Part shown: piece by piece, positions 1 to 63,553 of the stretch | Layout of the letters: each line of letters opens with the position of its first letter | Position numbering within the stretch: the first letter of the stretch is position 1 | Notes under the pieces: model-generated | Database searches by the model: none | Told to the model about the DNA's origin: nothing | What the model saw: the letters and a program-made list of their open reading frames with translations, nothing else | Assembly: GCA_002189035.1 (NCBI GenBank) | Contig: NEEC01000027.1 | Location: 62,001-126,000 of the forward strand | Source: Utricularia gibba | Taxonomy: Eukaryota > Streptophyta > Magnoliopsida > Lamiales > Lentibulariaceae | Length of the DNA: 64,000 nt | Direction: 5' to 3' | Program-made: the position numbers and the translations under genes

Positions 1-1568
1 TGATCCAGACGCAGGAGTGAAACCTAGAGCCGAGTTGCTATTGATCAGAGTAGGAGACTTCTCGGAAGAATGCTCCAGATTTTTTTCTTTCCCTGTTGCT
101 GAATCAGTTTTGCTCTTTACCTTTGCGCTACCATATACAAAACTGCAACCAACCACCTGCACAACACGAAGGTAGATAGAAGCCCTGAACTCTCTACAAT
201 GATGGATGCCATGCGGTGAGGTGTGAACTGTCTGCAATGATTTAAGCAATTTTACCTGAACAGGATCTGCGGCGATGAGCTTACCACCTATTGCACCCCC
301 AATGATATGACCATCAGGACTACAAACGGAAATACTTATACCCCCAGTTCGATCATGGGGAGCACCAGCTTCGGTGACCAAGTATGAGCCCGACAAGCAC
401 AGTATCTCGAAATGACCCTAAAGATGTTAATGTGTCTCAGGCATCTATGAGAAGTGGCGAGATCCTCAGGCAGTACTTTTACCTCATATGTTATGGTTTC
501 ACCAGTATTTGCTGGTTGGCGCAATGTGAGAGTAGAGACCGATCCATTTGCAGACATGATGCATAAGGCCCGTGGCCTTTGTTGTGCAAATGCAAGGATT
601 TTCCCAGAAATATCCTGCAAACAATTGTACAAAAAATTGCTTGAGCTTATCCAATATGTCTCAGACAAGGCCAACACACCTGCACCATACCTCTCCAACT
701 CCGACGCGCAAGACATGTGGAGTAAAAGCAAGTCCAGCGGAGCTGTTCATCCATTCACCTAGCAAGACAATGGCATATGAGGTTAAATGTTCAAAGAAGA
801 CCGCCAGTAAAAATTTGCATTGAGCAATAATGTACATTCCAGGATGTTGACATTATAATAGCTTGCACGAGAAAATTACTCACGATGGCAAGGCGAAAGG
901 CCTAGCCACTTGCATTTTCAAAAATGCTACCATAAGCACAAGCTATTACTTTTACTATACAAAGCATCTCCTACTTATTAATTCCTTTTACAGCCTCAAG
1001 AAATAAAATTCATACCATCAGTTTATTTAAGATTGAACAGCAAAAAGGAACACTCATAAACAGCGAGAACATACCCAGAGGAGCAAGTTTCTGCTTCCAG
1101 CCTGTTCCTGGAGGCCGCCCTCGACGTCCTTTTTCCCCAGGGCTGACCACCCAGAGGAAGAGGGCTTTGGAGCTGGTAATGGGGACAAACCTAAAGCCAT
1201 ATTTGCCCCACCAGGACCATATTTCCTAGGCCTACCCCTTTTCTTCTTCGAAGGCTGACTGTTTTGTGATCCAATTGGGACCGGTGCCGTATTTACGGCA
1301 TGCGGAAAACTAGGCTGTGAATTCTCAAGGGGAAAGGCTGAGTTGCTTGCAGCACCTCCACCAAGGCCAACATTGGTTTGAAAGGGAATGATGGGATTTG
1401 TATTGTTCTTGAAACTGGGAATTGGATGATGAATTCTACTAATCTGCGAAGAGGGCGACCCTCCCCACCACCGTGAACTGGCACTGGCCCTGTGCCGCCA
1501 GTACCGCTACCTCTACCAGGATAATAAGCAGCTGAACCTGCTAATGCCATTCCTTCTCTCCCATCCAT
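1..1568 (-). CDS. AHL: AT-hook motif nuclear-localized (AHL) protein, partial, two frame breaks
   Basis: Nuclear DNA-binding protein of the AHL1/AHL2 type. AHLs bind AT-rich matrix-attachment DNA through AT-hooks and assemble through the PPC/DUF296 domain to repress transcription. Exons (minus): 1075-1568, 691-758, 483-614, 256-417 and 1-156, the last running off the window. Start is MDGREGMAL. AT-hook 1 reads KKKRGRPRKYG and AT-hook 2 reads GRRGRPPGTGWKQ; the PPC domain follows (EWMNSSAGLAFTPHV, GKILAFAQQ, ALCIMSANGSVSTLTLRQ, FEILCLSGSYL). The conserved frame is lost twice in exon 1, at a C run at 1463-1466 and near 1150-1152; one extra base at each restores it. The C-terminal tail lies outside the window. 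Family is certain; the exact paralogue is not. Confidence 0.9.
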
Positions 1569-2733
1569 TCATTTACTAACTAAAATTCTAACTTTGGACT
1601 AAATTAATGCAACTCAAACTTCAAATGGTTCAAACGCGTCTGATGGGGAATCAAATGAAAGTTCAAGAGGAAAAAAAAAAAACATTGAGAAAACCAACAG
1701 TAACAAGCAGGACACTGGAATGCGAAAAGTTGAAATCTCTACGAGAAGCTTATGATGCGTTCTCTAGTTTGAACTGAAGTTAACGTGACTATAACTAGAA
1801 ATCGTTCTACTACGGATTACCGAGTCTGAAACTGAACTGCCCGAGAATTGAAAAGAAAAATTCTACTGACGTGACCAAATGAAACAGAAAAGGCACGTTC
1901 CAGAATACTAAAACTGGGAAAATCGAAAATTTTAGCAGAAGTTCTTAGAGTCTCCACAAACAATGGATGGAGTGAAGAATACAGCACGAATTACTCAACA
2001 CGTACCTGAGAATGGAGTTCAAAAAGATTCCTTGAACAAGGAAGCTCAAAATAAAAAAAAAATGATGGGAATACAAAGAAGCTCAAAATCCAGTCTCTGG
2101 CTCATACTAAGCGCAACCAGTAAACAAACGTAAGTTGTGGACACTCGACAGAACTGAAACCCTAGATATGGAGTGGGTAGAAGGAAAAAAAGAGCTGGGA
2201 AAAAGATGAGAAACGATAACGACAAAAGCGAGAATGAATGGTAAAAGTTGTGCTGTTAATTTAAAAGAAGCGAAGGAAAGGATTCCTTTTTCCCTTGTTT
2301 AAATTCCAAGCAAGCAATTGTGGGGTTTGAAACGAGACTGTGAAGGAACGGAGTTCTTATCCCAGGGCAGGGAGCCGATGTTGTAAGGATCTGACTCCAA
2401 CGCATTAAAGCCAGCCATTGGAGGAGTACAGTTGGTCTCAACTCAACCTTCCAGAGTAAGATGCTCTCATCACTGAATCTACCGACAGTTCATCAACTAT
2501 AACTCCATTCCCTTGCGCGAGTAACTTCAAAATTTTTCCTTTTCTTCTCTTTTGTAAGGTTATTACTAATTTCTTCGTCAAAGTTACAGAAGAAAACCAT
2601 CAAATTTCTTAGTTACAAATTCATATGCATACTACTTTCTAGGGGCAGGATGTTTCAGTACACTCCCCTCGCTGTAAATCGAATTCTGAACCCTATTACA
2701 ACATCTCTAACAATTTTACATTATCTCAGATCA
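1569..2733. other. Intergenic: AHL 5' leader/promoter and YqgF 3' flank
   Basis: AT-rich stretch upstream of the AHL start codon and downstream of the YqgF stop. It probably holds the AHL 5' UTR and promoter, possibly with a leader intron. Short open frames here match no family I know and contain no convincing exon. Confidence 0.5.
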
Positions 2734-3871
2734 TCATCGTGGAGCACCCTGGGAAAAGGGTTCATTTTTCTGTTCGCTCTTGTTCGCAAAGTCCAAGTAC
2801 CCCTGGGCATATGAATGGACATGCTATTAGTTTGACTACTTGACAGCAGAATGTGAGTGAGATCAGGGTTTGGACAACTCGCACCTGAAGGATTTGTACT
2901 GCAGCCAACTTGTCACTGATAGTCTTGGACTGCACAGGAGAGAAACTGAAGGGCTTCAAGAGAAAATCTATGTTCTTGAGGCCCAACAAAAATTTGTGTA
3001 TTAATTAGTAAACAAGCAATACAAGCACAACTTTTAAAGATAAATTAGCAACGTGTTGAAAACCTTGGATGTGAAGCATTCTTCCCAAAATGTATATTTT
3101 ATATCTTCGAGCTTCCGCGTCTTCCGGAGTTCATCAGCGAACATCTTCACATGCCCACCCTGCAAGGATGTAACACTGGTATTAGAATAGCAAACACAGG
3201 TTAAAGGAGTTATCATCCTTGGGAATGGAATGGGGACGTGTACAGGAAAAGATGGTGGAACACACATCTACGCTGTTTCTATCTCTATGACGAGGAATTC
3301 CAAAAACGAAGCCTGCAAGTGAAAATTCAGCGGCCTGCATGAGAGGATGAGAACATCAGCTGCTGATCTTTTCATTCATAAAACTGCCAACATCCATCTA
3401 AGCATGAAAGGATCTAGCATAGCCCGATTAAGGGCTTACCCGCTAAGCGGAATTTATAGATAACAGATGCATTTCAGCTCTCTATCACCGTAAGCACGAT
3501 CAGTCCCACTAACGTCAAAGAACATAACTTGGATTGGATTAAAAGAAGAGATTACTCACCAAGCACCTTAAATCAGCAGCAATTAAATCCATATTTGATT
3601 TTTTGCGAACAAGAACACTACAGGCAAGCAAACGAGTCCGTGCATTCAGGAATTCAACAAGCTTTCAAGCGTAACCATAGATCGTAAACGAAGAAGACGG
3701 TGTTTATGGAAGAAGCAGCACTGACCACAGGGGCGAAGCAATTTTATTATCTTCAGAGGAGATGGCGAGGCCCAAGTATTTGTCACCAATGTCAACTCCA
3801 AGCAAACGGCCACCCGTAATCACATTCGATTTCAGGAGTTGGAATAATCCCAATGGTTGCAAGTACTTCAT
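2734..3871 (-). CDS. YqgF/RuvX-like putative Holliday-junction resolvase / pre-16S rRNA nuclease
   Basis: Nuclear-encoded member of the YqgF RNase H-like family. Bacterial members mature 16S rRNA; the plant role is not settled. Six exons (minus): 3726-3871, 3560-3617, 3272-3334, 3064-3159, 2885-2974, 2734-2802, giving about 173 residues. Start chosen at MKYLQPL because relatives begin there; an in-frame Met lies 8 codons upstream (3895). Family signatures: LLGVDIGDKYLGLAIS (first acidic residue of the RNase H fold), NKIASPL, EFSLAGFVFG, KYTFWEECFTSK, and SPVQSKTISDKLAAV near the end. The exon at 3272-3334 was placed because it restores the EFSL block. No transit peptide is evident. Confidence 0.82.
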
Positions 3872-3895
3872 TCTTTCCTTGTTCTGTTTGGGCAA

Positions 3896-4473
3896 CAGTG
3901 AAATCTCGAGAAGAGAAGAGACGGATGGCGCCGCGGATCTGGGCTTCGAATTTTAGGTTTTCGATACCAGTTTTATTTATACCCACCCCGAAGCAGCAGC
4001 AAAAAGGTTGCCACGAGAATGTAAGCCCCGTTCTGTTAATCCATTTCATTGGACCAGGCAGATAACTGTCTAGTTAATCGACCAAGAGTCGCACCATCCC
4101 CATCACACGCCATGAGAGCTCCACACGTGTCTCAGCTCCTCCCCCCAACCACATGGGTCGGGGAGAGCGTCAATGGAATGGGCTATAACTCGTTTCCGAG
4201 TGCGCATCTCTGCACGTAACGGTCCGGGGACTTTCCTGAGCCCATGGCCCAAACCCTCACGGGATTGGACATTGCGACCCATCTGCCTCATCTCGTGGCG
4301 CACGCTTAACATCCATCCCCGCAATATAAACAAAGATCAATAAAAGTCTACTACCGATGTGGGCTCAAAAGATGTTTACACAAACTCCCTCCCCCTTATT
4401 TGTGGAGCGACAAGACCTGGTCGTCCTGAACAACCCCTCCCCGCCCTTCCAGCCCGTGGCGCTGGTGGTTAGG
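3896..4473. promoter_or_regulatory. YqgF upstream region with site II-like and telobox-like motifs
   Basis: About 580 bp between the YqgF start and the GSH1 stop, both minus. A GGCCCAAACCCT stretch near 4246-4257 joins a TCP-type site II core (GGCCCA) to a telobox-like AAACCCT, a combination common in promoters of plant translation and organelle genes. TGGGC also occurs near 4174. The open frames here match no known family. Confidence 0.35.
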
Positions 4474-7400
4474 TCAGTAGAGCAACTCCTCGAAAACAGG
4501 GTCTACGCATTGCGCCCACTTGCCATGGTACAGATCAAGGAGCCTCTCCGCAGGCGTCACTCCTGCATTAATATGTCCACGGACGACCAGGGCTTAGTGG
4601 AAACTTGCGACTAAAGAAACTATGATTATGAGAATGATATGATCACCAACCTGTATTAACCACTTGTGCCACTTCATTCAGGAATCCAGTTTCTTTGAAG
4701 CCGCGTCTTTCAAGGCCATCCTGTAAGGGAATGAATACGCAGGCATGAAACCACATTCTTCCCAGGCTCAACTGTTGAACAAAACACTTGGCAAACTTGA
4801 CAACTAGTACCTTGGCAAACTTGACAACTTCTTGGGCTATATGCTTCAACATGCCATCACGAAAGGGTGTCTTCAGGCCATGCTTGGGGACCTGAAAATA
4901 CTCCCTTTGATCAAAACTCAGTCGTGTGCACTGAGGCGAGGCAATATTATAACATAAAAGGCATCACAAACCTCATTTCTAAGCATCTGCCTTTCTTCTG
5001 AAGTCCAATCTGCTGTCAAGTCCAATACATTTTGTAAAGACACATCATCATACAAAATGCCAACCTGAAAGACAGATGATTCAGTGTCTGCACCCGCCAC
5101 CATGTGTAAAAAAACCAAATCCATATACTGGACTTGTTCCTTCAGGTTTACCAGAAAATCCCTAAATTCAGGAAAAAAAAAAAGTACCCAAAACGCAGGT
5201 AAGGCGCACAGCCTTCTCCAGGGTCCTCCATCAGCACCCCTCATCTCTAAGTACCTTTTAAGCCTTACCTGCGAAGTAAACATGTTGATTAAGATAACTG
5301 TATTCACATAAATACTATTGCAACTTTTGGAGATTATGACATCGGGAACCTCAGGAAATATTGTTGTCAAATGATTCTCCCAGTCATCAAGATTTGGATA
5401 TACGCCTGGAAGACAAGGCAGTTTCCCAGCCATAAAATCCTGGCAGCATTTGGATAAGCAAGATGAAATAAAAAAAGTAAACATGAGGAATTTATAAAAA
5501 ACAAAAGAGAGAGACTCAAGAATCGAGAAGAACCCGGAAAGACATCCCCGTGCAATTGACATATTTTTATTGCGGTAGACAAAGTACATAGGAACATCGA
5601 GTGCATAATCAACATACTGTTCAAACCTGTGCCAAACAAACAAACATGATCAAGTGATCGCCTGCTCTGATTGTAGATATCAGCAAGGAGAATCAAGTTA
5701 TAATGGAAGTTGTGAGTGTGCTGTCGCCAAAGAAGACTCACCCAAAAGACTCATCAAACACAAAGGGAAGCATTCCCGTGCGGGCATTGTCAGTGTCCGT
5801 CCATATCTGACTGTGATGGGAAAAAAAGCATATTTTTTTGAAATACAGGAAATGAAAGAAGCTTAGTAATCATAGAAGAGTAATAGCAAATACCTTCTCA
5901 TGCTCAGATAACCATTTGGTTTCCCATCGGTAAAAGGCGAATTTGCAAAAATTGCAGTTGCTATCTATTGTAATGGCAAGTTAGATAACGTAAACCATTA
6001 TATTTGTTGAAAAATGAGCAACTTACAGGTTGCAGGGCAAGGCCAGCACGAAACTTCCTTATCATATCCGACTCTGAACTAAAGTCTAGATTGACCTGGG
6101 ATACCAAGTGTAGAGACTGGTTCATGAATTGCGATTTCAGTGAACACTATAACTGAATCATCACAGAATCCATGCGCACCTGAACAGTACATGTCCGAAA
6201 CATCATGTCAAGTCCAAGTGAACCAACTTTAGGCATGTAATTCCTCATAATCTCGTACCGTCCCTGATTCAAGTTTTTTAAGTTAGAATAGTCATAGTTT
6301 ACCAATGAATGTTCCAAAAACTAATACATTAGGGAAATATAGACATCACACTCCAGCCCAGCACCGAAAATTCATGAGGTCAGGCACACACACTCGTGAA
6401 AATATTTAACATATAACTAGAATCCTCTGGAATGAACCAAAAGTAAAAGACAAAAAAAAAAAAGCTTATACAAATTCATATCAATACAACCTTGGGCATA
6501 ACTGGAATGTCCTCACGTCTCCATTTCGGTTGAAAACCAATTCCTAAAAACCCTAAGCCCATCTCCTCAGCAACAGCCTTAACCTGAGCATTATTTTTTT
6601 AAAAAAAATCAGCAGCAGCTGGAAGATTGGATTTTCAGGAAAACCAGTCCAATTAACCTGGTAAAGATGAGAGTTAACTTCGGCACAAGTTTGATGAAGT
6701 GTTTCAAGGGGCGCACCACTGAGTTCAAATTGGCCACCCGGCTCCAAGGATATACTCTGTTTCCCCTGGATCAAAAACAAACTTCAGAATTTAGTTTAAA
6801 AATATGGATCAGGAAGAAATAAAAAATTAAATGAATGCTTATGTTTGAAAATGGAGGATTTCCATGCGGCATGTAGGTTGTATTTTAAAAGAAATAATGA
6901 AAACATAGCATCATAACTGCTGCGCTGCATCAGTATCCAGTTCATTAATAAGAAGCTGAATGAGATGAAGAGCATGCCTGCTTTAGGCCAATAATGTTAT
7001 CATCTTCCATTATCTTATCCCATTCAAATCTCTCGGATATTCCGTTGAGTAGCTCTGCTATCTGCTCATATTTCATAGGCTGGAGAGTTTTAATTTCGAA
7101 CCCAAATTTTTCATGCTCGGTCCCTATCCTGAATGATGAGAATGCTAGATGTTCCTCAGGAGTTCAAAAGGCAGTAACATCAAAATCAAAATGAAAATCA
7201 AAATACTTGAAAACAGAAATCAGAAGTCATCTTGGATAATCAGGCGAAGGTAAATGGGGCGGAAAAAGGATATGAGAATAGTCTCTTCACTTCCTCAGAA
7301 GGAAAAAAAGAAAAAAGACATGAATAAAGTATACAAAGCAATACTTGACAAAAAATGAACCTCCATTTTTCCTTAGGCTTGCATCCAGAAGCAAGGTAAT

Positions 7401-7665
7401 TTAGGAGGTCTTCTCTTGTAACTGGTTCAGTAGAAAGAACAGCACCCTCTGTGGGAGGGCTGGCACCAACAATCAACTGATGCCTACACAAGCCGGTGTT
7501 TTGTGTGGTCAGCCTTGATGAATCCCATGAAGGAGAAAACAATTCCTTGCTTAACACAGTTTTTCGGGCAAGACTGCTAACTCCACCAATGCTAGATTTG
7601 CACCGTACAGTTTCAGACTGGATGTAGTGTAATGAACCCGGACAGGACATCAGCGCCATGGCCAA
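4474..7665 (-). CDS. GSH1: Glutamate-cysteine ligase (GSH1), chloroplastic
   Basis: First and rate-limiting step of glutathione synthesis: ATP-dependent joining of L-glutamate and L-cysteine in plastids. Fifteen exons (minus): 7361-7665, 6978-7128, 6658-6765, 6491-6583, 6180-6263, 6027-6095, 5894-5964, 5742-5810, 5534-5626, 5350-5439, 5188-5268, 4972-5064, 4811-4891, 4651-4720, 4474-4562; about 515 residues, normal for the family. The N-terminus ([11 protein letters not shown]) looks like a transit peptide. Conserved blocks: [70 protein letters not shown], ending [10 protein letters not shown]. Oddities: intron 2 begins CAG|GC; exon 9 lacks one base in an A run (5564-5568 on plus) before the [11 protein letters not shown] block; a 24-nt duplication spans the exon 13 donor. 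Upstream is the divergent BAH gene. Confidence 0.97.
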
Positions 7666-9539
7666 AAGCTAAAAATTACAGATGTAGATTAATCATTATA
7701 TATTAAAAAAAAAACAACTGCAATACGTCAAAACCAGTCACATATGCACATTCAAGTTGCACCTTTTCACACCCACCTTCCCACTAATATTTTTTCTGGT
7801 ATGGTAGCAAATATTCTAGAGGAAACAAGTGTGCGATTAGATGGGTGGTTGAGTTACAAAAAAAAAAAAAAAAAAGTCCGCAGTGGCGATCATCACTTTT
7901 GGAATTACTAGCAACGCAGATCACAATCCAAGTTAATGGTCAAAATTCACTCGCAAATCAGCACAAAACATGCTCAGTTGATATAGATCATGAAAAATCT
8001 TTTTACAGGGTATTCACCAGCTAACGATTCTCAAGAACACGGAAACAAGAATCAGAAGTTACGATCAAGAACAATTTTTCCGAGTGCATAAAAAGAATCC
8101 ATTTGAATTGGATTGAACAGCTGTAAGAAGAGTAAGCAAGAATACAGAAACAAGAATCGACGAGAGGTGAATTTCTTCCCTTGGGCAGGCGTCCCAGTTC
8201 CCAAAATGCTAACTTTTAAAAGGGAAAACAAAGGAAACGAAGAAAGAACCTCCACGTAATCCCCAGGAAAACTTTCGCCAACCCCAAAAGCTAAAATGCA
8301 CACGAAGCCGCGGTTGGAGCAGGATTCTGAAAGCGAACCGCCAGCCTACGTTTCTTGACTCCTTAAAAACGCCAGCTCAATTTCAGTGATTTCCCTAGGA
8401 ATCAATCAATTTATCATTCTTGTCTGAAACGCCTTCAATAAATAATGGCGGGGAAGGAAAGTGGCAGAAAGACGGATTCTTTTCCTATTTCCTCCAACTT
8501 GCATACTTACGTAAACACATACGTAATGGAGTTTCAAGGTATTTTTAACCCTAATTCTTATCACCATCAGTCATACATACTCCAACCAAGGACTTGTAAT
8601 TTGGAAATGGCAGGTCCAAAATTGCAGTCGGAAAAGCGCTTTGAAGGATACAACAGCCTCGAAATATTCAAAAAGGTTAAAACTTTTACTTCCTAATTGC
8701 ACCTTTGATGGTGTAATTTAGGGAAAACGGGAGACATTTTTCACTTCCTTCCACACTTTTACCGCGGTACGAAGACATCCTCCAGAATAAGAAACCCATT
8801 TCCAGAAAATCCGCAGTTCTTGGCATGCTCGACGAACGCCACAGCTTCGTAGCCTCCGAAGTTCAAAAACTAGGTGAGTACCATGCTCTTATTCTCGTGG
8901 TTTCCTCCTGGCGGTTTGCAATGTGATGAAAACTGATGTTCTATTTGCTTTGTTGCATATGTGGAGTTGAAGTTTTCTGGTTTCCTGCTTCCCCTTATAG
9001 GATATCAAGTGAAAGGGATTTTCTTTGATTCAAGCCCTCCCACGAGATGATACAGTCATTAACCCTAATTTGGGTGGTTCGGCTGTTTTAAACTTGATTT
9101 GGACTATAGTTTTTCAACTTCCGGCATTGAAAGGTATCGAGCTATTTTTCTTCCTCAATGTTCTGTAAATGCTTCTCTGTTGATTGGGTTTCTCTGTTGC
9201 GGAAAATACGGCTTGGATGTGATCATTTATTACCAAGGAGGAAAGATTTGGTATCATTCATGTATTTGTTTCCTATTCTCAGCTAAAATGAGAAGAATTT
9301 GGTTGATGTGGAATGATATTGGGTTAGTCGTCATAGAGTAGCATGGTTGAGATCTCATTTATTTTCTTTTAGTAGTGATATTTTTTCTTTCTACCGAACT
9401 TGTAGTTTCGTTTCATTTTGTATTTCTTAGACATTGATGCAACGTGTTTGCTGTTTGATAGTATTGCACTTCAGTCTAGATCTCTCTCTGAGCACGAAAG
9501 CCCTCAGTGCATCGTCAACTTCTAGTTTGAACTGTCGGG
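7666..9539. promoter_or_regulatory. Divergent promoter region between GSH1 and the BAH gene
   Basis: A 1.9 kb spacer separating two head-to-head genes. It should hold both promoters, 5' UTRs and possibly leader introns (for example plus-strand GTGAGT at 8873). An A run of about 17 bases lies near 7859-7875. Small frames at 8052-8303 (minus), 8445-8696 and 9099-9341 (plus) resemble no known protein. Confidence 0.5.
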
Positions 9540-16206: not shown

Positions 16207-16227
16207 TGTGTGTGTGTGTGTGTGTGT
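16207..16227. repeat. (TG)n microsatellite
   Basis: About ten TG dinucleotides, followed by TTGTGTGT. Length is likely polymorphic. Confidence 0.9.
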
Positions 16228-40627: not shown

Positions 40628-40631
40628 ACAC

Positions 40632-47370: not shown

Positions 47371-47739
47371 TGTGGAAGAGGATCCAGGTGCCAGTACTTA
47401 TGGGTGGAGCCTGGTGCCCGGAGGTCCTCATAATGGCATCGGTTTCGGATGCCTCTTCTTTCGATCACCCGTCGGTTTCAGGGAGGTTGCGAGGTAATTT
47501 GCCGGACACGCATTCGTGGGGTCCACCGATGCTACTCCTTTGAAATAAATGGGGGCCCAATGCCAAACCTTATTGGGCCTAAATCTGCCTCCTCTCTACT
47601 TTTGATCCGCCCAAATCAACCCCACTGGCCACTGGCGCTGTCTGGGGGGGAGATCCTCGCGGAAGGGATTCCTTCAAACTGCTCCTCTTTAATTGCTCAA
47701 ACGAGAGCTATGTGAAGGGCGATTTTGCATGCCATTGCC
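47371..47739. promoter_or_regulatory. Divergent promoter (dirigent / RsgA-like) with two site II motifs
   Basis: About 370 bp. GGGCCCAA (47553-47560) and TTGGGCCT (47573-47580) form a paired site II element on the RsgA side, as in many organelle and ribosome-related plant genes. Confidence 0.5.
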
Positions 47740-49773: not shown

Positions 49774-50215
49774 CCCAAGCCACAGGATGGAAGAACCCGC
49801 TATCCAGTTACTGGGATCAAACCAGGCTCGCACCTCACGACATGTTAGTTAGTGTACATAATCTCTACTTTCAAGCACCCTGCTGACAAATGAAACAAGC
49901 ATTTTCATCCCACTCAAGTTTTCAATTTGAAAACGTCTTGCATATATGACTGACTCCCTGCCTGCCTGCCTGCCTGTTCGATTTCGTGCTCTCAAACTTG
50001 GTGTTTTTTTTTTTTGCCCTTTATTCGCTCCCTTCTAAAGCGCGATTTATTACGCTGAGAACTCAATTACAATATGGAAAGGGTTCAAGGCACAATCTTT
50101 TTATTAATTTAAGCAAACAATGCAACGCGAGGGAGTGCAAGATCCAACAGGAGAAAAAAACAAGTGAAGTGAAGCTCACTCATGAACCGCAGCAACAAAT
50201 TCAGCATTTGCTGCG
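49774..50215. other. Convergent spacer
   Basis: 3' ends of the RsgA-like (plus) and 6PGDH (minus) genes. CTGC tetramers at about 49958-49976. Otherwise unremarkable. Confidence 0.5.
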
Positions 50216-51690: not shown

Positions 51691-52351
51691 AGTTGGCGAT
51701 GGTAGACGACGGAAACGAAAGGGAGGGTTTTAGATACAAATAGGTAGGCGAGGTTTCCGACTGGCGGACTTGTCGAGGAAGCGAAAAGGCAGCTAGATCC
51801 GACTCGAAACGACGCCGTATGTGGTTATTCATTCACAATTGAATTCTGGAATTCCTAGCAACTGACAGAACTGCCCAGATGCACATACGCCTGCTTATTA
51901 ACTCCCTCTTAACTGTTCCCAAGGCACCTCATCACCCATCACCACAACTCCCCAGTACAAGAAAAGCAAGCACAAGAACCAACACAGCATTCCAAACTAA
52001 CAAAGAATTTGAACCAACGAAAGGTGGATGCTGGACAGAGAATAGGGGCAGCGCAGAGCAGATGCACCGCAAGTTGATTGCATTGATCTTCATCCACAAA
52101 TCCAGCTCCTAGCTGTCTGGATGCTGCTTGCACACCTGCAGGTCGTCTGCTATGTTCGTGGAGCCTTTTTGCATGTGCAGCGGATCAAGCAAAGCCAACC
52201 AGCCTACAAGCCGCCTTGTGATGGATGCTATCTGTGAAATCCCTCGCTTTAATCCCGGATCCTAGTGCCTGCCAATAAAATCTGAGAGCGTCAGACCTCC
52301 TATGAGGACCTCCCAGGGCAACGTGTTGAGGGATGCAATATTTCTAACTCT
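51691..52351. other. Intergenic: 6PGDH promoter and DHHC gene 3' flank
   Basis: About 660 bp between two minus-strand genes. No coding exon or repeat seen. Confidence 0.45.
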
Positions 52352-54158
52352 TTACTTCTCATGCCTTTTCTGTGCTTTCATGAAATTAGGGAAATACATA
52401 GTAACACCAAGAGGGAAACCAAAAAATCTCATGATATTCTGGCAATCCTTTTCTGTTACTTCTTCGCTGTCAACTGAGCTCAGACGACTCAAGTAGGTTT
52501 TCCCAGTGTATACATAATAGAGTTGCTGCCACAAGAGGACGCTTAAGCCACTCCCTACTGAGATACTGCACATAAAGAGGTATACAAGAACAAGTCCTCT
52601 CATGGGTAAGAGAAGTACTGATCCCAAAAGAGCAAGCAATTTGTCTTCCAGTAATTGGAGAGCCCACTTCACCTCACCTAATTCATTTATTCTGTTGAGA
52701 GTTCTTCTTTTGAGAGGAGGCCAGATGGAGAATACCGAAAACAAAGCCATAATAGCGACATAGAGTATACTGACAAGTGTAAAGATTAGGAAGTAAACAA
52801 AACTCCGATGGTTTGCAGCGCCAACACAGTTCCCAATCTGCATGTGGAAACAAAAAATTTACGTGACATGGAAATGAAATGCCTTGAGCTAGAAATAATG
52901 GAATGAGGCGTTATCAAAATTTAAATAACTAGTTCTCAGATGTTTTCTTACACACATCCTACACGAGCGATGATCCATGTCCAATACACACAGAAAAAAA
53001 TCTAAACTTACAAAGGGGCAGTGATGATCCATGTCCAATACACACATCCTACACGAGCGACAGTGATGTGCTCTAGGTGGCTTTGGCTTTGAACAATAGT
53101 GGCAGAATGTATAGTTCTCCAGGGCACCTTTTTCCACAGCTGGATAGCTACCCCAAATGACAATGGGTGGGAAACCAGCAGGTTGGAAGGCCACCACAAA
53201 AAAAGATGACAACGTGCAAACGGATAGGATTGCTGCAACTGTCAAGTGGACAACTCCATAAAAGTAACTAACTGAGAAGATTACAGGATAGACTGCCCAA
53301 ACTCCCGCACCTGTATCACGGTCATCGGAGCTCCAGTGTGAATACAAAGAAAATGCCAAGTATTTATCAAGAATCCTATCCATTTTCAAGTATTTGATTT
53401 GTAATGCATCAATTTGACATTGCCATCCACTATATCAGTTGGACTGAGAAATTGAAGGGGTCATAGTACTTACATATGAAAAATGCCATGAATAAAACCA
53501 CAATGCCAACAAAAATCCGATCTCGGGACCATCTCCACCGGACCCATTTGTCATCACTTCTCGAGGAGTTTTCCTTCGTTATAGCTCCACACCAGCCGCA
53601 TTTAAAAGAAGATGAATAATCAGAGACAATAACATGAAGACCACAACCCCAACATATGTGCTCTAGACTAACAGAGGCTGGAGTAGTGTCCTCCTGCAGT
53701 TCAGCATATGAAGAAACTCATATCCGGTCACTCAGAGACATGATAAATCGTTACTTTTAAGGGAAAAAAACACATGATCATGTTCATGTAGAACCGATAA
53801 AAGGCAGACAAATCCCAATCCCTTAGAAAGAAAAATTAATCTTTAATTCTTTAGCCACCACAAAAGGTCAACACAACATCTCTACAAATCCTCAGCGAAC
53901 AATCTATGTCCAACGCCCATGTCACAACTATGGACAGATAGAATCCAGAAATCTCCGAACAATAATGAAATTTGTTCTTGCTTGATGACTTGGGAGTAAG
54001 GAAAGAAAAACATCATAAATCATGAGGCGTGTGGAGGAGCTACAAATGGATATCCAGTTACGCCAAAGCCTTACCACCGGGACGACGACGTAGTTACCGG
54101 CGGTGGAGCTAGGCCCGGCGGAGTTGACAAAATCCATTTCACGCCTGACGAACAACAC
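52352..54158 (-). CDS. DHHC protein S-acyltransferase (palmitoyltransferase)
   Basis: Multi-pass membrane enzyme attaching palmitate to protein cysteines; like the plant PAT group of At3g18620. Exons (minus): 54075-54158, 53474-53693, 53012-53310, 52352-52837; about 362 residues. The first Met gives MLFVRREMDF; MDFVNS is an alternative. An N-terminal zinc-ribbon-like region (EHICWGCGLHVIVSDYSSSF, CGWCGAITKEN) precedes four hydrophobic segments. The catalytic cysteine-rich domain is CHYCSKPKPPRAHHC...CRMCVLDMDHHCPF, continued after the intron by IGNCVG. The intron just after the DHHC codons contains duplicated pieces of those same codons (52951-52991). Confidence 0.94.
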
Positions 54159-54765: not shown

Positions 54766-56766
54766 ATGGAGAAGCGTCGCCCTCCTACGAGGCTCGTGCT
54801 TCTTTTTTCCCTGGTTTTAATTTTTGTTGATGGGGAAGTTCTTCAAGCCGACAAGCGAGCGTTGATGGATTTTGCAAGCAGACATGTGCACAAACGTCGT
54901 TTGAATTGGAACGAAAACTACCAGGTATGCACCAACTGGACAGGAGTTTCTTGCAATGAAGACGGTACCAGAGTCATATCACTACGGCTTCCAGGGTTTG
55001 GCTTTCGTGGCCCCATTCCTGAGGAAACTTTGGGCTGTTTGTCGGCATTGCAGATTCTGAGTCTAAGATCGAATATAATAACTGGGAATTTGCCCAAGGA
55101 CTTTGGTAATCTGAAAAATTTGAGCTTTTTGTATCTTCAGCGCAACCGTTTTTCAGGCCCCCTGCGTCTCAATTTCCTTGCTTGGAGCAATTTGACTGTA
55201 GTTGACTTATCCAACAATGCCTTCAATGGCAGTATAAAGGGCTCCTTGGAAATGCTGAACCATCTTGTCTCCTTGAATCTTGCCAACAATTCACTTTCTG
55301 GAGAGATTCCTGATCTACATCTTGCAAACTTACAGTCCTTGAACTTGTCTTTCAATAAGCTTGTTGGTAAAGTACCCAAATCACTTCAGAGATTTCCGAA
55401 GTCTGCGTTCATGGGAAACGATAAAGCTTTATTAGAGTATTCAGTCAGTGATTCTCCTTCTGTTGTAGCTCCGCCTGAACAGAAACCGAAATTGAGCCGG
55501 GGGCTTTGATTGGGATCATAATTGGTTGTTCTGCTTTCGGGTTACTAGGCTGTGGGTTTCTGATACTTGTTTGTATACTTCGAATAGAAGCCTCGGATCA
55601 TGATTTTCCAGGGAGATCCGCAAAAGGGAACGCGTCTCCAGAGAAATCCATCACTCGCATTGAAGAAGCCAAAAATAAATTGGTGTTCTTTCAGGGATGT
55701 GACTACGCATTTGATTTGGAGGATTTGCTGAGAGCTTCAGCAGAAGTGCTGGGGAAAGGTACATTTGGAACGTCGTACAAGGCGATACTGGAGGATGCCA
55801 CAATGGTGGTGGTGAAGAGAGTGAAAGAGGTGAGTGTCGGAAAGCGGGAATTCGAGCTACAAATGAATCTCATCGGAAGCATCAAACATGAGAATGTGAC
55901 TGAGATGAGGGCTTACTATTACTCAAAGGATGAAAAGCTTATGGTCTACGACTTCTTTGCTCAAGGCTCTGTAGCAGCAATGCTTCATGGTACCGACCAT
56001 CCTTCTTCTTTGTTAAAGAGCTGTGCGATGTGCATTGAATCTGATCGTGATCACCCTTCTCATTGTTACAGGTCAACGGGAAGGGAGGAGATTCCTCGAC
56101 TGGAACTCCCGGTTAAACATTGCTCTTGGCACTGCAAGAGGCCTCGCCCGCATCCATGAGGAGAACAACGGGAAGCTGATCCATGGAAATGTAAAATCGT
56201 CCAACGTTTTCCTTAATTCGGAAGGATTCGGGTGCGTATCTGACCTCGGCCTTTCAGCCATAATGAGCTCGTTATCTCCTCCGATGGCTCGTGCTGCCGG
56301 TTACCGAGCACCGGAGGTAACAGACACCCGAAAGGCGACTCAAGCATCCGATGTCTACAGCTTCGGAGTGATGGTACTGGAACTTGTCACAGGTAAATCG
56401 CCGGTGCAGACCACTCACGGCGACGAAATAGTCCACTTGGTCAGGTGCGCGTCACCCCTACCCCTGATTGCAAGCGCATTGCCGGAAAGAAATTCAAGCG
56501 CATTACCTGATTGTATGTAGGTATGTGTTGACTTGTGTGTTGTTAGGTGGGTGCATTCTGTGGTGAGGGAAGAGTGGACGGCTGAAGTATTCGACGTGGA
56601 GCTGCTCCGTGTACCGGGGATCGAGGAGGAGCTGGTGGAGATGCTGCAGATTGCGCTGGCTTGCGTAACGAGGGTGCCGGAGCAGCGGCTGAAGATGGCG
56701 GAGGTGGTGAGGATGATCGAGAACGTGAGAGCGTGTGATTCCACCTCCAAGACGGCGGAATCCTGA
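54766..56766 (+). CDS. LRR-III receptor-like kinase, probable pseudokinase
   Basis: Plasma-membrane receptor-like protein of the At4g23740/At1g64210 type. Exons: 54766-55989, 56072-56444, 56547-56766; about 605 residues. Signal peptide ([14 protein letters not shown]), LRRNT ([11 protein letters not shown]), about five LRRs ([20 protein letters not shown]), then a transmembrane segment ([20 protein letters not shown]). The kinase domain has a Gly loop ([12 protein letters not shown]) and the VVVKR lysine, but the catalytic HRD is replaced by [10 protein letters not shown] and DFG by DLG, so it is probably inactive. One base is missing in the G run at 55499-55503, just before the membrane segment, creating a false stop at 55507. 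Next gene is a CRF, as in Arabidopsis. Confidence 0.92.
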
Positions 56767-57677
56767 GTTTGATTCATGGCTCCGTATGAAAGAAAAACAA
56801 GGGAGGGGGTCCCTGCCTGCGCGGGCGGGCGGCCAGTGGATCAATGATTGCAGGATTCCACGTTCCTTCTTTCACCTCGTAGGAGGCCGCAACGCAACAC
56901 AACGCATTAACTAATGCATTCCATTTCAATAACTGAAGTTAGGGTGAGTTATTAGTATTCAGACAGTCTGGTGGGAGTACTCATCATTGATTGCATCACC
57001 CCGACTTCCCCTTCCTTCCACACAGCCCTGCCCCTGCCCCTGGGCCAGAAGGAAGTTAAGTTAGTTTCCCCCTGGCGCCGGACTGCGAGAGACGATGATG
57101 CACATCACCAAGCTCCTATTGGCACCAGGAGTTCCTCTGGTTTTATAATAAATCAAATCCCAAGGCGCAACTGTTACCTACAGGATGTCCTCTGCGTTCT
57201 GGGGCTGGATGGGTTGAAGTGGGAGCCCGATTCTTGGTGCATGCGTAAGTGTGGCGATCATTAAAGTCCTCCCACAAATGCTCAGCCCTCACTTCACCCG
57301 CTGTTCCGTGCCAGGATTTTACTCACTGCAACATAACGGAACTGCTGCTGGGATTTGAATTCCAGTTTTGACCCCCCAAGGAGCCGAACAGCCGGGGAGG
57401 AGGTGGTGCATCATAAAGAACGACTGCCGCTCTGCATCATTTTCTCTGATTCTATAAAAATCCTACCATTCATCTTCTTCTGTCGCTCCGATCCAACGGA
57501 GGAGATAGCAAAAGAAGGGGAGACACTAGGACATCTGAATACAGAAGCCAGAAAAAGCTTCCTCTCTTGCTAGATCTATCTCCTTCTGGCAGAGGTTGCT
57601 GGTCTTTTTGAGTCCCTGAACCCTTTTTCGAGTTTGCCTTTCACGAATGAGAATCTGAAGCAGCAGCAATCAGAAAT
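56767..57677. other. Spacer between LRR kinase and CRF gene
   Basis: About 910 bp holding the kinase 3' UTR and CRF promoter/leader. A TATA-like TCTATAAAA at about 57453-57461 lies about 215 bp before the CRF start. No other exon recognised. Confidence 0.5.
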
Positions 57678-58575
57678 ATGTCGTTTCCTTGTGGAGTCAG
57701 GTTCAGTGAGCATGTCACTCGGACCACGGCTGTTTCCGGTTTCTTGCGGAGGACTTTACGTATTTCCGTAACTGACCAAGACGCGACTGATTCGTCTAGT
57801 GATGAGGAGGGCGTGTCTCTCAAGCGCCGCCATGTGCGCCGGTATGTGAATGAAGTCGTCGTACTCAAGCCCGAGAAGGGAGGCGGTAACTTCCTTCGCA
57901 GGGCGAATGCCGGGAAGCAGAAGAAGGAGGCGGTGGATGTTGATAAGAAGTTCCGTGGAGTGCGGCGGAGGCCGTGGGGAAATGGGCGGCGGAGATTCGA
58001 GATCCCCTGCGGCGCACTAGGCTTTGGTTGGGTACCTACGAAACAGCGGAGGAAGCCGCTAAGGTGTACGACCGCGCGGCCGTTCAACTCCGTGGCCCCA
58101 ACGCTCTCACCAACTTCTCTAATCTCCCGACGAAGGCGCTTAAAACTACCTCCGGCGAAGAAGACTCGCAAAGCAGTGACAAGTCACCCAGCTCCGTACT
58201 CCGCTGCGTAACGCGCGAAAATCCCCCCAACTCACCGTCCAAGAAAGACATCTTCGCCGACATCGGAAACCCTGTGCTCATACCCGAGCAGATCGACCTA
58301 ACGACGGGCTTCTTGGATGATGCCTTCTGTTTGGACGATATCTCTAATGATGATATTGTCTTCGGATCCAACCTCGTTATCGGATCCGGGTCCCCCTTTG
58401 GCCATACGACGACTACTTCAAACAAGATATCTGCGACGTTTTTGGGTCGGATATCAAACCAGGAGCGTTGGAGTTGGGTATTTCAAAATATCCACAGGAA
58501 AATTCCACTGCCCAGACCAAAATTCCATCTCCCACAGAGACACAAAAGTCGCACGCCACCCTCTCCAAGGCCTAA
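57678..58575 (+). CDS. CRF2: AP2/ERF transcription factor, cytokinin response factor (CRF) type
   Basis: Single exon. The CRF-specific N-terminal domain ([26 protein letters not shown]) is followed by the AP2/ERF domain ([40 protein letters not shown]) and a SPSSVL segment, a putative phosphorylation site. CRFs act in cytokinin and auxin responses; CRF2 is TMO3. Two single-base losses break the frame: a G run at 57976-57979 inside the AP2 domain, and most likely the C run at 58392-58396. Adding one base at each restores the AP2 domain and a CRF-like end ([15 protein letters not shown]), with stop at 58573-58575 and 299 residues. The second correction is less certain than the first. Confidence 0.9.
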
Positions 58576-58620
58576 ATACCTTCGTTCCTAGTTTCTTGGC
58601 TGCTGGTTTGAATTCCGATA

Positions 58621-59853
58621 CTATTCCTTTACGCCGGTGTGGAGAATGCTTGCTTGGTTGTTCCACAGCTGAGAAGAGACGAATTTTGAGATAGCTTGCG
58701 CAGCTAAGCTGTCAGCCGTTTCCTGATCATGCCCCGGATGCTGATGCTTCTTGGCTATCTTGAAAGAGTGATCACCTCCTTCAACCACATGCAGTTCATT
58801 GATACAACCCATTCTCGTCCTCACAGCTTCCAGCTTCTCCAGAGAACACATCCCGTCCTTGTTGCCCTGTGACCAGGCATCTCACGCCAATGTTTTTTAG
58901 ATGTTGAAAGGTCGAAAGATGCACAAAAAGGTCTAATCGTTTACAATGCTCGTACTTGGACAAACATTGCAGGGACAGTGAGTCGCAGAAGTACGTCATC
59001 CCGCACAGCCCCATTCATTCCCTAACAAGTGTTTTTAATAGAAGTGATCATAAAAGTGCAGAACAAAAACATAATTGTGATGTATGTGGGGATGAAACCT
59101 GCAAGGGATATCCCAGACAAACAATCGCTGATGCTTTAATATCCTTCTGTGCTGCAACCATGCAACTGACCCTGGATATTGTGCAGGAAGACAAATGAAT
59201 GGAAATATTGCTTTTAGGGGGCCAAAGCATAGTGAAGGACAAACCTTGATCCCATCGATTTCCCAATCAAGACCAATGGATGGCCAGGGTGCTTTGCCAC
59301 AGCACGACGGACTATATCTGTATGAAAATCAACCAACTTTTCTGCCTTAGGAGGTGGCCTCCGTTTCTCCCCAGAAAAGTCTGATTCAAAAGTTCCATAC
59401 AACACAAAAGTTGTGAAATTTCTCTCATATGAGACAGCACTGTCATCCATACTCCGAAAAATTATATAATCAATGGGAATAAACTTCAACAGCATGCACT
59501 CACATGGATAATCGAAGGTGATCACCTCAACAGCATCCAGTTCAGAGGCCAGTAAGCCTTTCCACCTGCAGCAAAAGGTGCAATCAAAGAAAAGAAACTT
59601 CATCCGGAATCTAAAGATGCGAAACAATGTCCACCCTGTAGTAAGCCAACCTAATCATCCAATCCGAGGAGGAGGGAGCCCCAGCCCCATGAGCGAAGAC
59701 TACAACAGGAGACTTCTTTATCGTCTCACCACCACTCAATCTCTCCGTTCCCACGTCACGGGTTTCAGCGTCCTCGCCTTCTGGAGACCCCGTAACTTCT
59801 TGGAATTGTTCCGGGGCAGCGCGCTTTCTCTTTCGACGGGGTTCCCCAGCCAT
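58621..59853 (-). CDS. TEX30/KANL3-like alpha/beta hydrolase
   Basis: Alpha/beta hydrolase-fold protein of the TEX30/KAT8-NSL3 group; substrate unknown. Six exons (minus): 59651-59853, 59504-59565, 59245-59380, 59099-59171, 58956-59021, 58621-58866; about 261 residues. Motifs: PVVVFAHGAGAPSSSDWM (oxyanion region), EVITFDYP, nucleophile elbow LVLIGKSMGSR (GxSxG, Ser), VCLGYPL, PAMFVQGNKDGMC, and HVVEGGDHSFKI with the catalytic His. Start chosen at MAGEPRRKRKRAA, but the frame is open for 108 more codons upstream, so the true start could lie earlier. It ends 45 bp from the CRF stop on the opposite strand. At5g41850 is the remembered relative. Confidence 0.88.
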
Positions 59854-60362
59854 TACCCCTGCAACAAGCAGATTACCCCGAGACGGAACACCATAATCAA
59901 AGAAGCAGAAGCCTAGACTCCAGTTTTGGCGGTAAAAGGAAGGGGGTCGAAACGGGCCTTCAGGTTGAAGCCCATGAAAAAGCCTGGCCCTTACTAGGAT
60001 AAAAGTCATTTCGCGCCAACCCACCCCCAATGAGATGACGCCAGCAAGAGCCAGAAGACAACCAATCATATGATGGCAGCAAGAGAGACGCGGGGGATTT
60101 GACCGGTCTCTCAGCTTTTCCGTATCTCGTCTTTTCAAAAGAATTAAAAAAACTACATTCTTGAAATAAGCAGCCAAATCTCCTAATTAACACAAACAGT
60201 TGCAGGGCAGGGCGAAACACAGGAGGAGGAGGGAAGGAGGAGCAGACGACGAAGGCCAACCAAAAATGGCCCTCTCACTGCTTGCTTATTCATCCCATCC
60301 CATCCCATCCCATCCTCGTCAAAAATACTAAACACAAAAATGCATCTTCATTCAATGTGTTT
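59854..60362. other. Upstream region of the hydrolase gene with (CCCAT)n
   Basis: About 510 bp. A CCCAT pentamer array lies at 60291-60314. The first 324 bp stay open in frame with the hydrolase gene. Nothing else recognised. Confidence 0.5.
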
Positions 60363-60870
60363 TCACGAGAGCTCTTGGTTTTTCTCCACGATCCTCACTT
60401 CCTTGGCAGATCTGAGCACATTTGCCTGACAACGCAATCACCCAACAAATTAAGTGGTTGAGTAAACATCTCCTCAGCGTGCCTCAAGGAAAAAAGATGC
60501 TCAGGCACCCCAGGAATGCGGGCTTGATGATGTGTGCTGGTTAGTTAGTTAGGTGACGTACTTGGTGATCCGTGATTTCGACGGCGAACCCATCGACGAT
60601 GACGAGGGAGATGGTCTTGTTGTAAGTACCCGGCAGGAGGTTGTCGGCGAGCACCCTGTCATGCTTCTTGCTCAGGTACGAATCCAGCAGGTGCGCTCCC
60701 CTCTTGCTTCTGCGACCCAAGTTGGATCGATCACCAAGCGACAACACAGGAGTAGGAGAGGACTAGGAGGAGGGAGGGGGCACTTACTTGTCGGACCGGA
60801 GGCGCTCGTACTCCGGATCGTAGTTCATAAATACGAAGTGAAGGTGAGGCTCCGCGTCAATATTATTCAT
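60363..60870 (-). CDS. Stand-alone I9 (subtilisin propeptide-like) inhibitor domain protein
   Basis: Small protein, about 97 residues, exons (minus) 60788-60870, 60562-60709, 60363-60425. It consists of one domain resembling the I9 propeptide of plant subtilases: EPHLHFVFMNYDPEYERLRS, HLLDSYLSKKHDRVLADNLL, YNKTISLVIVDGFAVEITDH, then VLRSAKEVRIVEKNQELS. The order HxxLL-like helix, -Y--(V/I)DGFAV-I-, Q--(V/L)-----V--VEK is that of the propeptide, but no protease domain follows. Plants have similar free inhibitors of subtilases (SPI-1, At1g71950). No signal peptide is visible in this model; an upstream exon is possible, since the frame remains open before the Met. Confidence 0.72.
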
Positions 60871-61479
60871 CTCCAACCCCCGGTGCTGTCTTCAGGGGGA
60901 TGAATATTCGGAATGGAATGGAATGGAAAGAAAGGGGGAAGAAGCCATTGATTGATGACATTAAAAAGGCTGGCTGGCAGAAAGGCAGGCAGGCAGGCAG
61001 GCTCGCCCCTGAATCATTGCATTGCATTGCATTGCACTACCCCCCTCTGGTGGGTGGGCCTCAGGTACTCGTGTCCAAATTTAGAACTCCATGCTTTTCA
61101 GATTCGGCTTATTGGAGCACCTCAACCTTAAACCACGCTAATGATTCAGAATACTTGCTGCTTTACTGTTGAGTTTCACCCACAGCAACCATGGAATGGA
61201 AGGATGCGTTCAGAAACACTGACTGCAGTTAAAAATGTGTTGAGGTAAAAACAAAAATACTCAGGAATATTTGTAATAGTGGCGTGTGGTCCCGACATCA
61301 CGTGCGTGACCCCCGGTCCCCACCCACAACAGCCACAGCCAGCCCCCTCACGTGTCGGCAGATGATTGATCAGAAAGAGAGAGAGGCTCACCTGGCCATG
61401 GTGTGCCTAATCAGTCACTCCACCGGCACCGGGCTCATATTTTATCACTTCTACAAACGGTGTACATCCCTCCCATTCG
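60871..61479. other. Upstream region of I9 gene with simple repeats
   Basis: Holds GGCA tetramers (60983-61001) and ATTGC pentamers (61015-61036), and ACGTG motifs at 61300-61304 and 61349-61353. No exon recognised. Confidence 0.5.
60983..61036. repeat. GGCA and ATTGC microsatellites
   Basis: About five GGCA units then, 14 bp later, four ATTGC units. Confidence 0.85.
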
Positions 61480-61484
61480 CCGGT

Positions 61485-61940
61485 CACCAGACAGCTGAGA
61501 GCACGCCCCAGGGGTTGACCTCAACCGCCGCGCCGGACACGTCGGAACACTCAGGATCCAGCTGGTAAAGGGTGCTTCTTTCACGCCATGGATGAGGCCT
61601 GCTTCTAGAACATTCTTGATTGCCATTCCTATCGAAATACTCGTCTGATGGTCTCCGGCATCCCCCAGCGATCTGGATTCCTTGCCTTGCATTCTCCATG
61701 TAAAGGTTCGATACCCGTTATTCCGGATCACGCCTGCCCTGCCGATGGTTGTACACAGCTATATATGTTCAGCTAGGACATCTTCCACTCCACCACAAGT
61801 TTCGATCCCGACTGCGACTCCGGAAAAAGGCGATGATCCGCACCGTATTCATCCCCGCCACTCTTAATGGGTACCAGATCCTCCATCTCCCGCGGAAATG
61901 TACGAATCTCCAATACATACGTCGGTGCCTGAATCTACAG
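61485..61940 (-). pseudogene. Decayed GH28 polygalacturonase fragment
   Basis: Pieces of a polygalacturonase appear in order but in shifting frames: DSGTDVCIGDSYISAGDG, IKSGGDEYGADH, PFSGVAVGIETCGGVEDVLA, a stop (TAG) after EHI, IGRAGVIRNN, MENARQGIQIAGG, EYFDRNG, IKNVLEAGLIHGVKEAPFT, CSDVSGAAVEVNPW. Compared with GH28 proteins, about 14 codons are missing after DEYG and more around the RIK region. There are at least five frame changes plus a stop, including an insertion, so this is true decay and not the homopolymer error seen in other genes. It is not a copy of the intact gene at 36.7-38.8 kb: the ENARxGIxIAG and SDVSGAAVEVNPW blocks belong to another subfamily. Confidence 0.8.
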
Positions 61941-62711
61941 CAATTAGTTGATACCCCAGAAGAACCAACCAGGGAAGTGTCATTCCGTTGCAGAGTGTAG
62001 AATGGAAAGGGGCCAACACGGTCACGTGGGCGGATCACAACATGGCTGTCTAGCATGTACCTCTGAAACGCAAGCAATGTAGCGAGGTTCACATTTTCTT
62101 TCAGTTCCTGCACACACACAGGGTGTGTGTACCAGAAGGGCGAGTCTTGGAAGACAAGATCGGAGGGTCATGATGGTTCCTGGAATGAATGCCAACCTCC
62201 CAAATGACGATCTGTTATGTATCAGTGATGGTATGAATTTATTAGCTTCAGCATTCAACGTGAGCAGCGACGGCCCACGCCTGAGCTGACCCTCCCTCAT
62301 TCAGGCTCCTAATTCAGTTTACTGCCCAATGGTGCTTCTGTTGCACATCAACATCCACGGCTGTCGCTGTGGATGGCATGTGATCGACGGCCCGCAGGGC
62401 AGGGGAGGGCCCCAGAGCCCATGTGCTCTTGGTCTTATTCTTCATTTAAATCATGGTCCCTTTCTTCCCAAGGGACTGCATAAACCACCCACCCCACACA
62501 GTCTCATCCAAAATGTTGGTAATTAGACGAGGGAAATGCACAAGGCAAGTAAGGTTCGGTACATACAAGATGGGTAGGAATGGTGGACGATCTCTCTCCC
62601 TCCCACCTTGGGCATGTATGCGCTTACTAGCTACTCAACTCCAGGTAAAAGATACAGTAAGTAGGTACAACAAAGCAACGCCCATAGATGATGCTCAAGA
62701 GCTCCATGAGT
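61941..62711. other. Region between GH28 pseudogene and PYL gene
   Basis: May include further eroded polygalacturonase sequence up to about 62110, but I cannot align it. It contains a CACGTG G-box (TCACGTGGGC, about 62022-62031). No intact exon. Confidence 0.4.
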
Positions 62712-63553
62712 TCAGGCAATGTCGACCTGGCCCTGGACGGCAAGGCGCTCGGATACATCAGCCAGAGACTTGAGGTTGCAGTTGATCAATGCCTCAACAA
62801 AGTAACACGTTTCGTCCCTCGTGTTTCCTTCAGGCACATCTACAACAAATGACTCGATCACCATCGTTCCCGGCCTCCCATCGATTACCTCTGGATGAGC
62901 AGTGATGACCGAGGAGTAGTTCTGAAATAAATACAAGTAAACGAGGGCCGAGAGTTATAGGGCAGTCTCCGCGTATAACTCTACACAGAAGCAAATCACA
63001 GCGTACGGGTGTGACAACTTCCACCGATCAAGCATATCATTTTTAAAGCCAAAAAAAAATCAGATTTTTAACTGAGAGGGTACTAGAAATTAAGACATCC
63101 AGTCAATACCTTGAGGCGATGATCCCCACCAACGATCCTCATGCTGAAGATGTGCTCCTCATCGTCCAAGAGCTCCAGTCTTTCGTGACTGATGGTTGCG
63201 GGAAGCCCTGACTTGACGCTAATCTCTCTAACAGTTCCAATCTTCAAATCTCCTTTCATAGTACACCGACTCACAAACGGCTTGTACCTCTGCGGCTGAT
63301 CGAATCTGCGAACCAAGGACCATACCTAAATGGAAGCGACAAGGACAGCATCAAAACCTAGAATTCAAAGCGGAATCGGGCCAGAAAAAAACCCCAATTT
63401 CACGGGAATCAAAAAGGGGCTCACGATGGGCAGAGGGGCCTTGATGTGCTTGACCAGCGAAGAGGAGCACTGGTTGTCTCCGACATCATGCCTATGGTGC
63501 CTCTTGATAAAATCGGACTCCGGTGCGCCGATGCGGCTCATCTGGCAGTGCAT
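62712..63553 (-). CDS. PYL9: PYR/PYL/RCAR abscisic acid receptor (PYL8/9-like)
   Basis: Soluble ABA receptor that, when hormone-bound, inhibits clade A PP2Cs. Three exons (minus): 63425-63553, 63110-63325, 62712-62921; 184 residues (a Met four codons in is an alternative start). START-fold signatures are intact: [20 protein letters not shown] with the ABA-contacting Lys, the gate [19 protein letters not shown] (SGLPA), the latch GGDHRLKNY (HRL), and [20 protein letters not shown] with the pocket Asn. The three-exon structure and length fit the monomeric PYL7-10 clade. A TATA-like AATATATT lies about 120 bp upstream. Confidence 0.95.

Follow-up and report, generated by a model that had tools for sequence, protein, structure and literature searches.

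According to its published genome, Utricularia gibba has passed through three whole-genome duplications after gamma, the last of them by allopolyploidy, and has since been fractionated (PMC6982007); another paper counts at least three duplications (PMC10663240). Fractionation after repeated whole-genome duplication is an already published process in this plant; the passages of the genome paper that were consulted do not name the block described below. Here, we describe a stretch of 64,000 nucleotides from contig NEEC01000027.1 (C496:62001-126000, below called the window) that carries a dense row of genes between an AHL gene and an abscisic acid receptor gene. It is highly probable that the last whole-genome duplication produced two homeologous copies of an old eudicot gene block, that the window is one of them, and that this copy has itself been partly lost and compacted. 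The gene set, the homeolog, its gene relics, the losses on both sides and the older copies were computed, the gene order in grape comes from papers, and the duplication layers in Arabidopsis are inferred. The genome that was searched comprises 100,091,633 bases in 516 contigs, which is close to the 101 Mb published for U. gibba (PMC6982007).

The homeologous segment on contig C1

The entire window DNA was searched in four pieces, and parts of it also by protein, against its own genome. This revealed that C1:8422225-8470197 is collinear with the window from the CRF-type gene to the AHL gene, in reversed orientation, with matched stretches that are 66-90% identical. The synonymous substitutions per synonymous site (Ks) between window and C1 have a median of 0.57 and a range of 0.30-1.06 in 21 entries, several of which are exons of the same gene, and the dirigent gene and the 3' part of the CRF-type gene have the highest values. 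One of these entries, a match of the RsgA gene, is spurious, as the gene model used for it overlaps the dirigent gene and took in frames opposite to it, and separate tblastn and blastn searches find no RsgA on C1. As a collinear sister segment with a shared divergence, the C1 segment is a homeologous block from a whole-genome duplication.

From AHL to CRF, the window has 22 genes, and C1 matches 15 of them. Eleven are matched along much of their length (AHL, BAH, DUF3527, bHLH, RING1, RING2, WRKY22/29, the Rce1-like protease, dirigent, the LRR kinase and CRF), and four are broken or relics, namely 6PGD, XTNX with 106 codons, the first exon of PLAC8 and the last exon of RuvX. In the 6PGD copy at C1:8426537-8427756, part of the interior is unmatched and the frame contains stops, and this copy looks like a decaying duplicate. 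The remaining seven (GSH1, DUF604, polygalacturonase, ROH1, WRKY24/56, RsgA and DHHC) could not be traced on C1, where DUF604 has just a 28-base match that is out of order and has an E of 0.001.

Losses are found in the window as well. C1 carries a GH9 endoglucanase gene flanked by the WRKY and protease genes, a DUF4378 gene adjoining the bHLH gene, and EamA transporter genes between BAH and AHL, and at E 0.001 the window matches none of them. Genes of the DUF4378 and EamA types also flank the bHLH gene on a further contig, C244, and therefore are old at this place. In Arabidopsis, the GH9 gene At4g23560 presumably lies next to WRKY29, and this gene has its counterpart on C1 and none in the window. 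The loss is reciprocal, because in the window WRKY24/56 fills the gap between WRKY22/29 and the protease gene in which C1 has GH9. Counted from AHL to CRF, 11 genes are broken or lost on C1 versus 3 in the window (p = 0.057, two-sided), a count that is uneven in that C1 models scoring below 8 were dropped, tandem EamA models were taken as a single gene, and every window gene was assumed to be ancestral. These numbers give a hint of biased fractionation, and in view of the p value subgenome dominance is not claimed. That the window stems from the dominant parental subgenome of the allopolyploid is a tentative idea that we consider rather unlikely than likely; if it were true, a genome-wide count of such bias could map the two parents.

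Older paralogous segments

Further, older copies of parts of the block are found elsewhere in the genome. The segment C413:3,829,419-3,883,622 contains RING2, DUF604 (C413:3839506-3841303), WRKY and Inhibitor_I9 (C413:3883202-3883622) genes in window order and orientation, and C4:801,758-815,926 contains WRKY and RING2 only. AHL was considered as a fifth anchor on C413, since a 143-base DNA match lies at the expected place (C413:3,798,846), but a protein search finds none at 1e-4, and four anchors were counted. The C413 and C4 copies share 72% and 68% protein identity with each other versus 53-62% with the window, which would fit a second homeologous pair that is somewhat more diverged. Copies of the WRKY22/29 type are present on C1, on C413 (two) and on C4, and lone paralogues of WRKY at 1.24 Mb and of 6PGD at 5.24 Mb (C413:5235790) lie on C413. 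On C244, the DUF4378, bHLH and EamA genes stand side by side at 2,545,308-2,558,117, and a CRF-type gene follows the C1 order at 2,509,075, about 36 kb from the bHLH group. The Ks values of the older copies range from 0.74 to 2.72, with one saturated, and are too high or too uneven for dating.

The gene order in grape

Grape is not known to have duplicated since gamma. Therefore, where a grape block unites genes that are dispersed over several Arabidopsis regions, these regions are most simply explained as products of later duplications in the Arabidopsis lineage itself. On grape chromosome 15, scaffold 0046 carries PYL9 as VIT_15s0046g01050 (PMC11593594), WRKY24 as VIT_15s0046g02150 and WRKY22 as g02190 (PMC11172563), and the bHLH gene VvMYCA1 as VIT_15s0046g02560 (PMC5226110), so that all four placed genes have the order of the window, read in reverse. 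The chance of such an agreement for four genes is 1 in 12 by simple arithmetic, and the shared scaffold adds weight to it. The sequence-only reading had proposed that the window, in which genes of the Arabidopsis regions At4g22-23 and At5g41/At1g63-64 are interleaved, reflects an ancestral order, and the grape genes support this: the interleaved order is probably the ancestral eudicot order.

Grape and the window differ in the interval between PYL and WRKY24. In grape, PYL9 starts at 18,133,272 (PMC11593594) and g02070 at 18,873,629 (PMC8447581), which is a distance of 740 kb, and as grape gene numbers rise with position, WRKY24 (g02150) should lie beyond g02070. The interval thus measures more than 740 kb in grape, whereas it has 19,956 bases in the window. 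The grape interval also includes the WRKY46/53-type gene g01140 (PMC11172563), for which the window has no counterpart: the window contains 2 WRKY motifs at up to one mismatch, compared to three WRKY genes in the grape interval.

Weighing of the explanations

Several points weigh against the window being a homeologous copy of an old block that it shares with grape. The grape placement covers only four genes, taken from published identifiers, and the other 22 are unplaced. Of the C3H2C3 RING genes, a published list places five on this scaffold of grape (g00930, g01820, g01880, g02070 and g03770; PMC8447581), all of them outside the stretch between WRKY22 and the bHLH gene in which RING1 and RING2 would be expected. 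The four window genes to the right of CRF were not found in C1:8,400,001-8,422,225, and beyond CRF, C1 carries other genes (WRC, DCD-domain and NDK). The older copies are not cleanly apart from C1 by Ks, as the 3' part of CRF has a Ks of 0.96 on C1 versus 0.85 on C244, and the 5' part of the bHLH gene one of 0.74 on C244. The ancestral status of GH9 in the block, finally, depends on the position presumed for At4g23560.

The sequence-only reading had regarded the window as an unbroken block in pre-duplication order, which would imply a lineage that split off before the Arabidopsis duplications and a fractionation in Arabidopsis alone. The interleaved order matched by the four grape genes would agree with this, but an unduplicated block is contradicted by the C1 homeolog and the older segments on C413, C4 and C244, and an unbroken one by the GH9, DUF4378 and EamA genes that are kept on C1 and unmatched in the window, by the missing WRKY gene of the grape interval, and by the compaction of this interval to about 20 kb, so that this explanation is very improbable. 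It is even far less credible that the C1 segment represents an alternative haplotype of the window or a duplicate made by the assembly, as an identical gene order might suggest at first: with an identity of 66-90%, where alleles would be near 99%, a median Ks of about 0.57, and relics and losses on both sides, the two segments are too diverged for alleles. A second pair, with a somewhat greater divergence, is made up of C413 and C4. A cluster kept together by selection, for instance for a shared regulation of the bHLH, WRKY and cell-wall genes, could account for an order preserved since grape and for a non-coding element common to window and C1 (see below). We give this little credit, because no pathway common to the 26 genes is evident, half of the genes from AHL to CRF are broken or untraced on C1, and an inherited order requires no selection. 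The reading as one of two homeologous copies, itself partly lost and compacted, hence stays by far the preferred one.

Genes of the window

The gene set is based on home-made gene models, which were tested by Pfam, PDB sequence search and Rfam and may have missed further genes. In the 64 kb, they give 26 protein genes, of which 21 are firmly supported by the databases, 4 more weakly and 1 is doubtful, and in addition one RNase MRP RNA gene. The genes that had been named from the sequence alone are present in the order given for them, with Pfam support below cut-off in the case of PLAC8 and CRF; beyond that list, there are RuvX, DUF3527, an Rce1-like protease, dirigent, RsgA, DHHC, Inhibitor_I9, PYL and the MRP RNA gene. 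Labels such as WRKY22/29-type, GL3-type, AIRP1-like and XTNX-type are putative, drawn from reading together with domain matches.

The Pfam curated cut-off is passed by 20 of the 26 protein genes. In the left part, these are the AHL gene with AT-hook and PCC/PPC domain (1-1506, minus strand, PCC 25.1 bits at a cut-off of 25), which may extend beyond the left edge, a BAH-domain gene (9540-11927, plus strand, 31.9 bits at a cut-off of 30.8), a DUF3527 gene (13998-15522, plus, 170 bits), the GL3/EGL3/VvMYCA1-type bHLH gene (17311-20026, plus) with bHLH-MYC_N, HLH and ACT-like matches, the XTNX-type TIR-NBS gene (20951-23875, minus) with TIR_2 at 33.2 bits (cut-off 28) and NB-ARC at 23.3, marginally under 23.5, and the AIRP1-like RING gene 1 (27777-28410, plus, later exons undefined; zf-RING_2 51.7 bits with joined exons). 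They are followed by the BRH1/RHA1-like RING gene 2 (31681-32196, minus, zf-RING_2), a DUF604 Fringe-like gene (33270-35826, minus, 121.9 bits), a GH28 polygalacturonase gene (36395-38822, plus, 49.9 bits), a ROH1-like gene (39126-40370, minus, 398.8 bits), the WRKY22/29-type gene (41277-42339, plus, by Pfam) and the group IIc WRKY gene of the WRKY24/56 type (43585-44218, plus; WRKY 52.6 bits for the second exon and 91.2 for the joined exons). To the right of these lie the genes of the Rce1-like (CAAX-type) membrane protease (44397-46269, minus, 81.4 bits), a dirigent protein (46810-47397, minus, 127 bits), an RsgA GTPase (47716-49773, plus, 50 bits), 6-phosphogluconate dehydrogenase (6PGD; 50176-51681, minus, 387.8 bits), a DHHC S-acyltransferase (52185-53717, minus, 44.8 bits) and an LRR receptor-like kinase (54766-56766, plus, kinase 37.6 bits, the LRR part by reading), a TEX30-like alpha/beta hydrolase gene (58621-60069, minus, Abhydrolase_11 106.1 bits), and the gene of a PYL9-type abscisic acid receptor with a START-type domain (62712-63541, minus; Polyketide_cyc2 33.3 bits at a cut-off of 27.4, PDB match to PYL9 at 8.7e-35).

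Four further genes score under their respective Pfam cut-offs, namely the RuvX/YqgF-like gene (2300-3952, minus, RuvX 23.0 bits versus 29.2), the PLAC8-family gene (29163-31216, plus, 22.8 bits, E 0.00018, versus 34.4), the CRF-type AP2 gene (57651-58590, plus, AP2 32.8 bits versus 33.3) and a small Inhibitor_I9 gene resembling a subtilisin propeptide (60363-60870, minus, 21.1 bits versus 21.2). The 3' end of the PLAC8-family gene (30968-31216) is a tandem repeat of the GQPYY type. The CRF-type gene has a frame shift of reading within the AP2 domain, which may be due to a real pseudogene or to an assembly error. GSH1, encoding glutamate-cysteine ligase (4474-7668, minus), has approximate ends and a 5' part that may reach about 8.87 kb, and one of its exons matches glutamate-cysteine ligase in PDB at 3.2e-24; LEAFY-SAM as an alternative assignment of a GSH1 exon was dismissed, as its Pfam score is sub-threshold and the family unrelated. 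A doubtful gene at 61438-62300 (minus), perhaps a broken polygalacturonase-like one, was assigned by reading only and has no Pfam match, and one piece of it that was searched in PDB gave no match there.

The RNase MRP RNA gene (4009-4301, minus) has an Rfam score of 75.8 bits for RF00030 (cut-off 50) and is the sole match in the genome among the 24 of 706 candidates that were scored. Its promoter reaches to about position 4365, where an element (4365-4355) is one mismatch away from the plant upstream sequence element and is followed after 24 bases by the TATA-like TTTATATT (4330-4323), and a run of five T stands after the 3' end. An upstream element and a TATA-like sequence at this spacing together with a T run are the layout of plant small-RNA genes that are transcribed by polymerase III. 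At one mismatch, the window contains 3 occurrences of the upstream element, where 1.5 would be expected by chance. A reading frame predicted at 4103-4312 was dropped, as it lies inside the MRP RNA gene.

Between the two WRKY genes, there is a conserved non-coding element of 105 bases (42867-42971, no strand assigned) that is 88% identical to C1:8433963-8434068. The gene that flanks it differs between the homeologs, being WRKY24/56 in the window and GH9 on C1, and no additional copy was found in the genome. A relic of a GH9 exon is not supported by translation, and for a known RNA the best Rfam score is 8.8 versus a gathering score of 70.

Apart from the block, mitochondrial cox1 was found at C515:183547-185854, where its two matched parts are separated by a LAGLIDADG-like reading frame (by reading). 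The encoded COX1 has the helix 3 motif LLLLCCSAL with its adjacent cysteines. Most plants have serines at this site, and the adjacent cysteines are a mark of Utricularia.

Comparison with Arabidopsis and the published genome

The comparison with Arabidopsis is one of locus numbers only, some of which are from papers and most of which are presumed. Within the three Arabidopsis regions named in the sequence-only reading (At4g22770-At4g23750, At5g41 and At1g63-64), numbers for the XTNX, WRKY, AP2, PGD and group IIc WRKY genes are found in papers, as is one for dirigent. The papers give XTNX as At4g23440, a WRKY gene as At4g23550, an AP2/EREBP gene as At4g23750, and AT4G23690 as a member of the dirigent family (PMC10548141), with which the window order of XTNX, WRKY, dirigent and CRF agrees. 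Likewise, At5g41570 and At1g64000 are listed beside group IIc WRKYs, and PGD3 and PGD1 are At5g41670 and At1g64190, so that both regions have the group IIc WRKY and PGD genes in window order, and GL3 and EGL3 appear in a literature listing together with At5g41315 and At1g63650. Unlike in the window, the genes are split over regions in Arabidopsis. According to the literature, Arabidopsis has one XTNX-type gene in each of two clades; in U. gibba, no second XTNX-type gene besides the relic on C1 was reported in the genome at E 1e-5, which by itself is no proof that such a gene is absent. A collinearity analysis of Setaria has AT4G11180, AT4G23690 and AT5G42500 as partners of one and the same dirigent gene (PMC10548141), and this fits a single ancestral block behind At4g11, At4g23 and At5g42.

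Taken together, an old eudicot block corresponding to scaffold 0046 of grape chromosome 15 very probably gave rise, by the last whole-genome duplication of U. gibba, to two copies, the window and the C1 segment. The window would then have kept the old order while part of the block was lost and compacted, and the C1 sister would have lost other genes, some of which left relics. In Arabidopsis, that lineage's own later duplications, which were presumably beta and alpha, and a subsequent complementary gene loss would have dispersed the same genes over several regions. The gene order may simply have been inherited, and no function would be needed to hold the genes together. A lineage outside the Arabidopsis duplications, grape included, can show the genes of three Arabidopsis regions united at a single place, and this is not a sign of an intact ancestral block. 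The window and C1 represent a worked homeologous pair with relics, which is useful for tests of subgenome bias in a minute genome, and the findings resemble what the genome paper describes for U. gibba as a whole, namely about 100 Mb with duplicated blocks and with genes that have gone back to single copy (PMC6982007).

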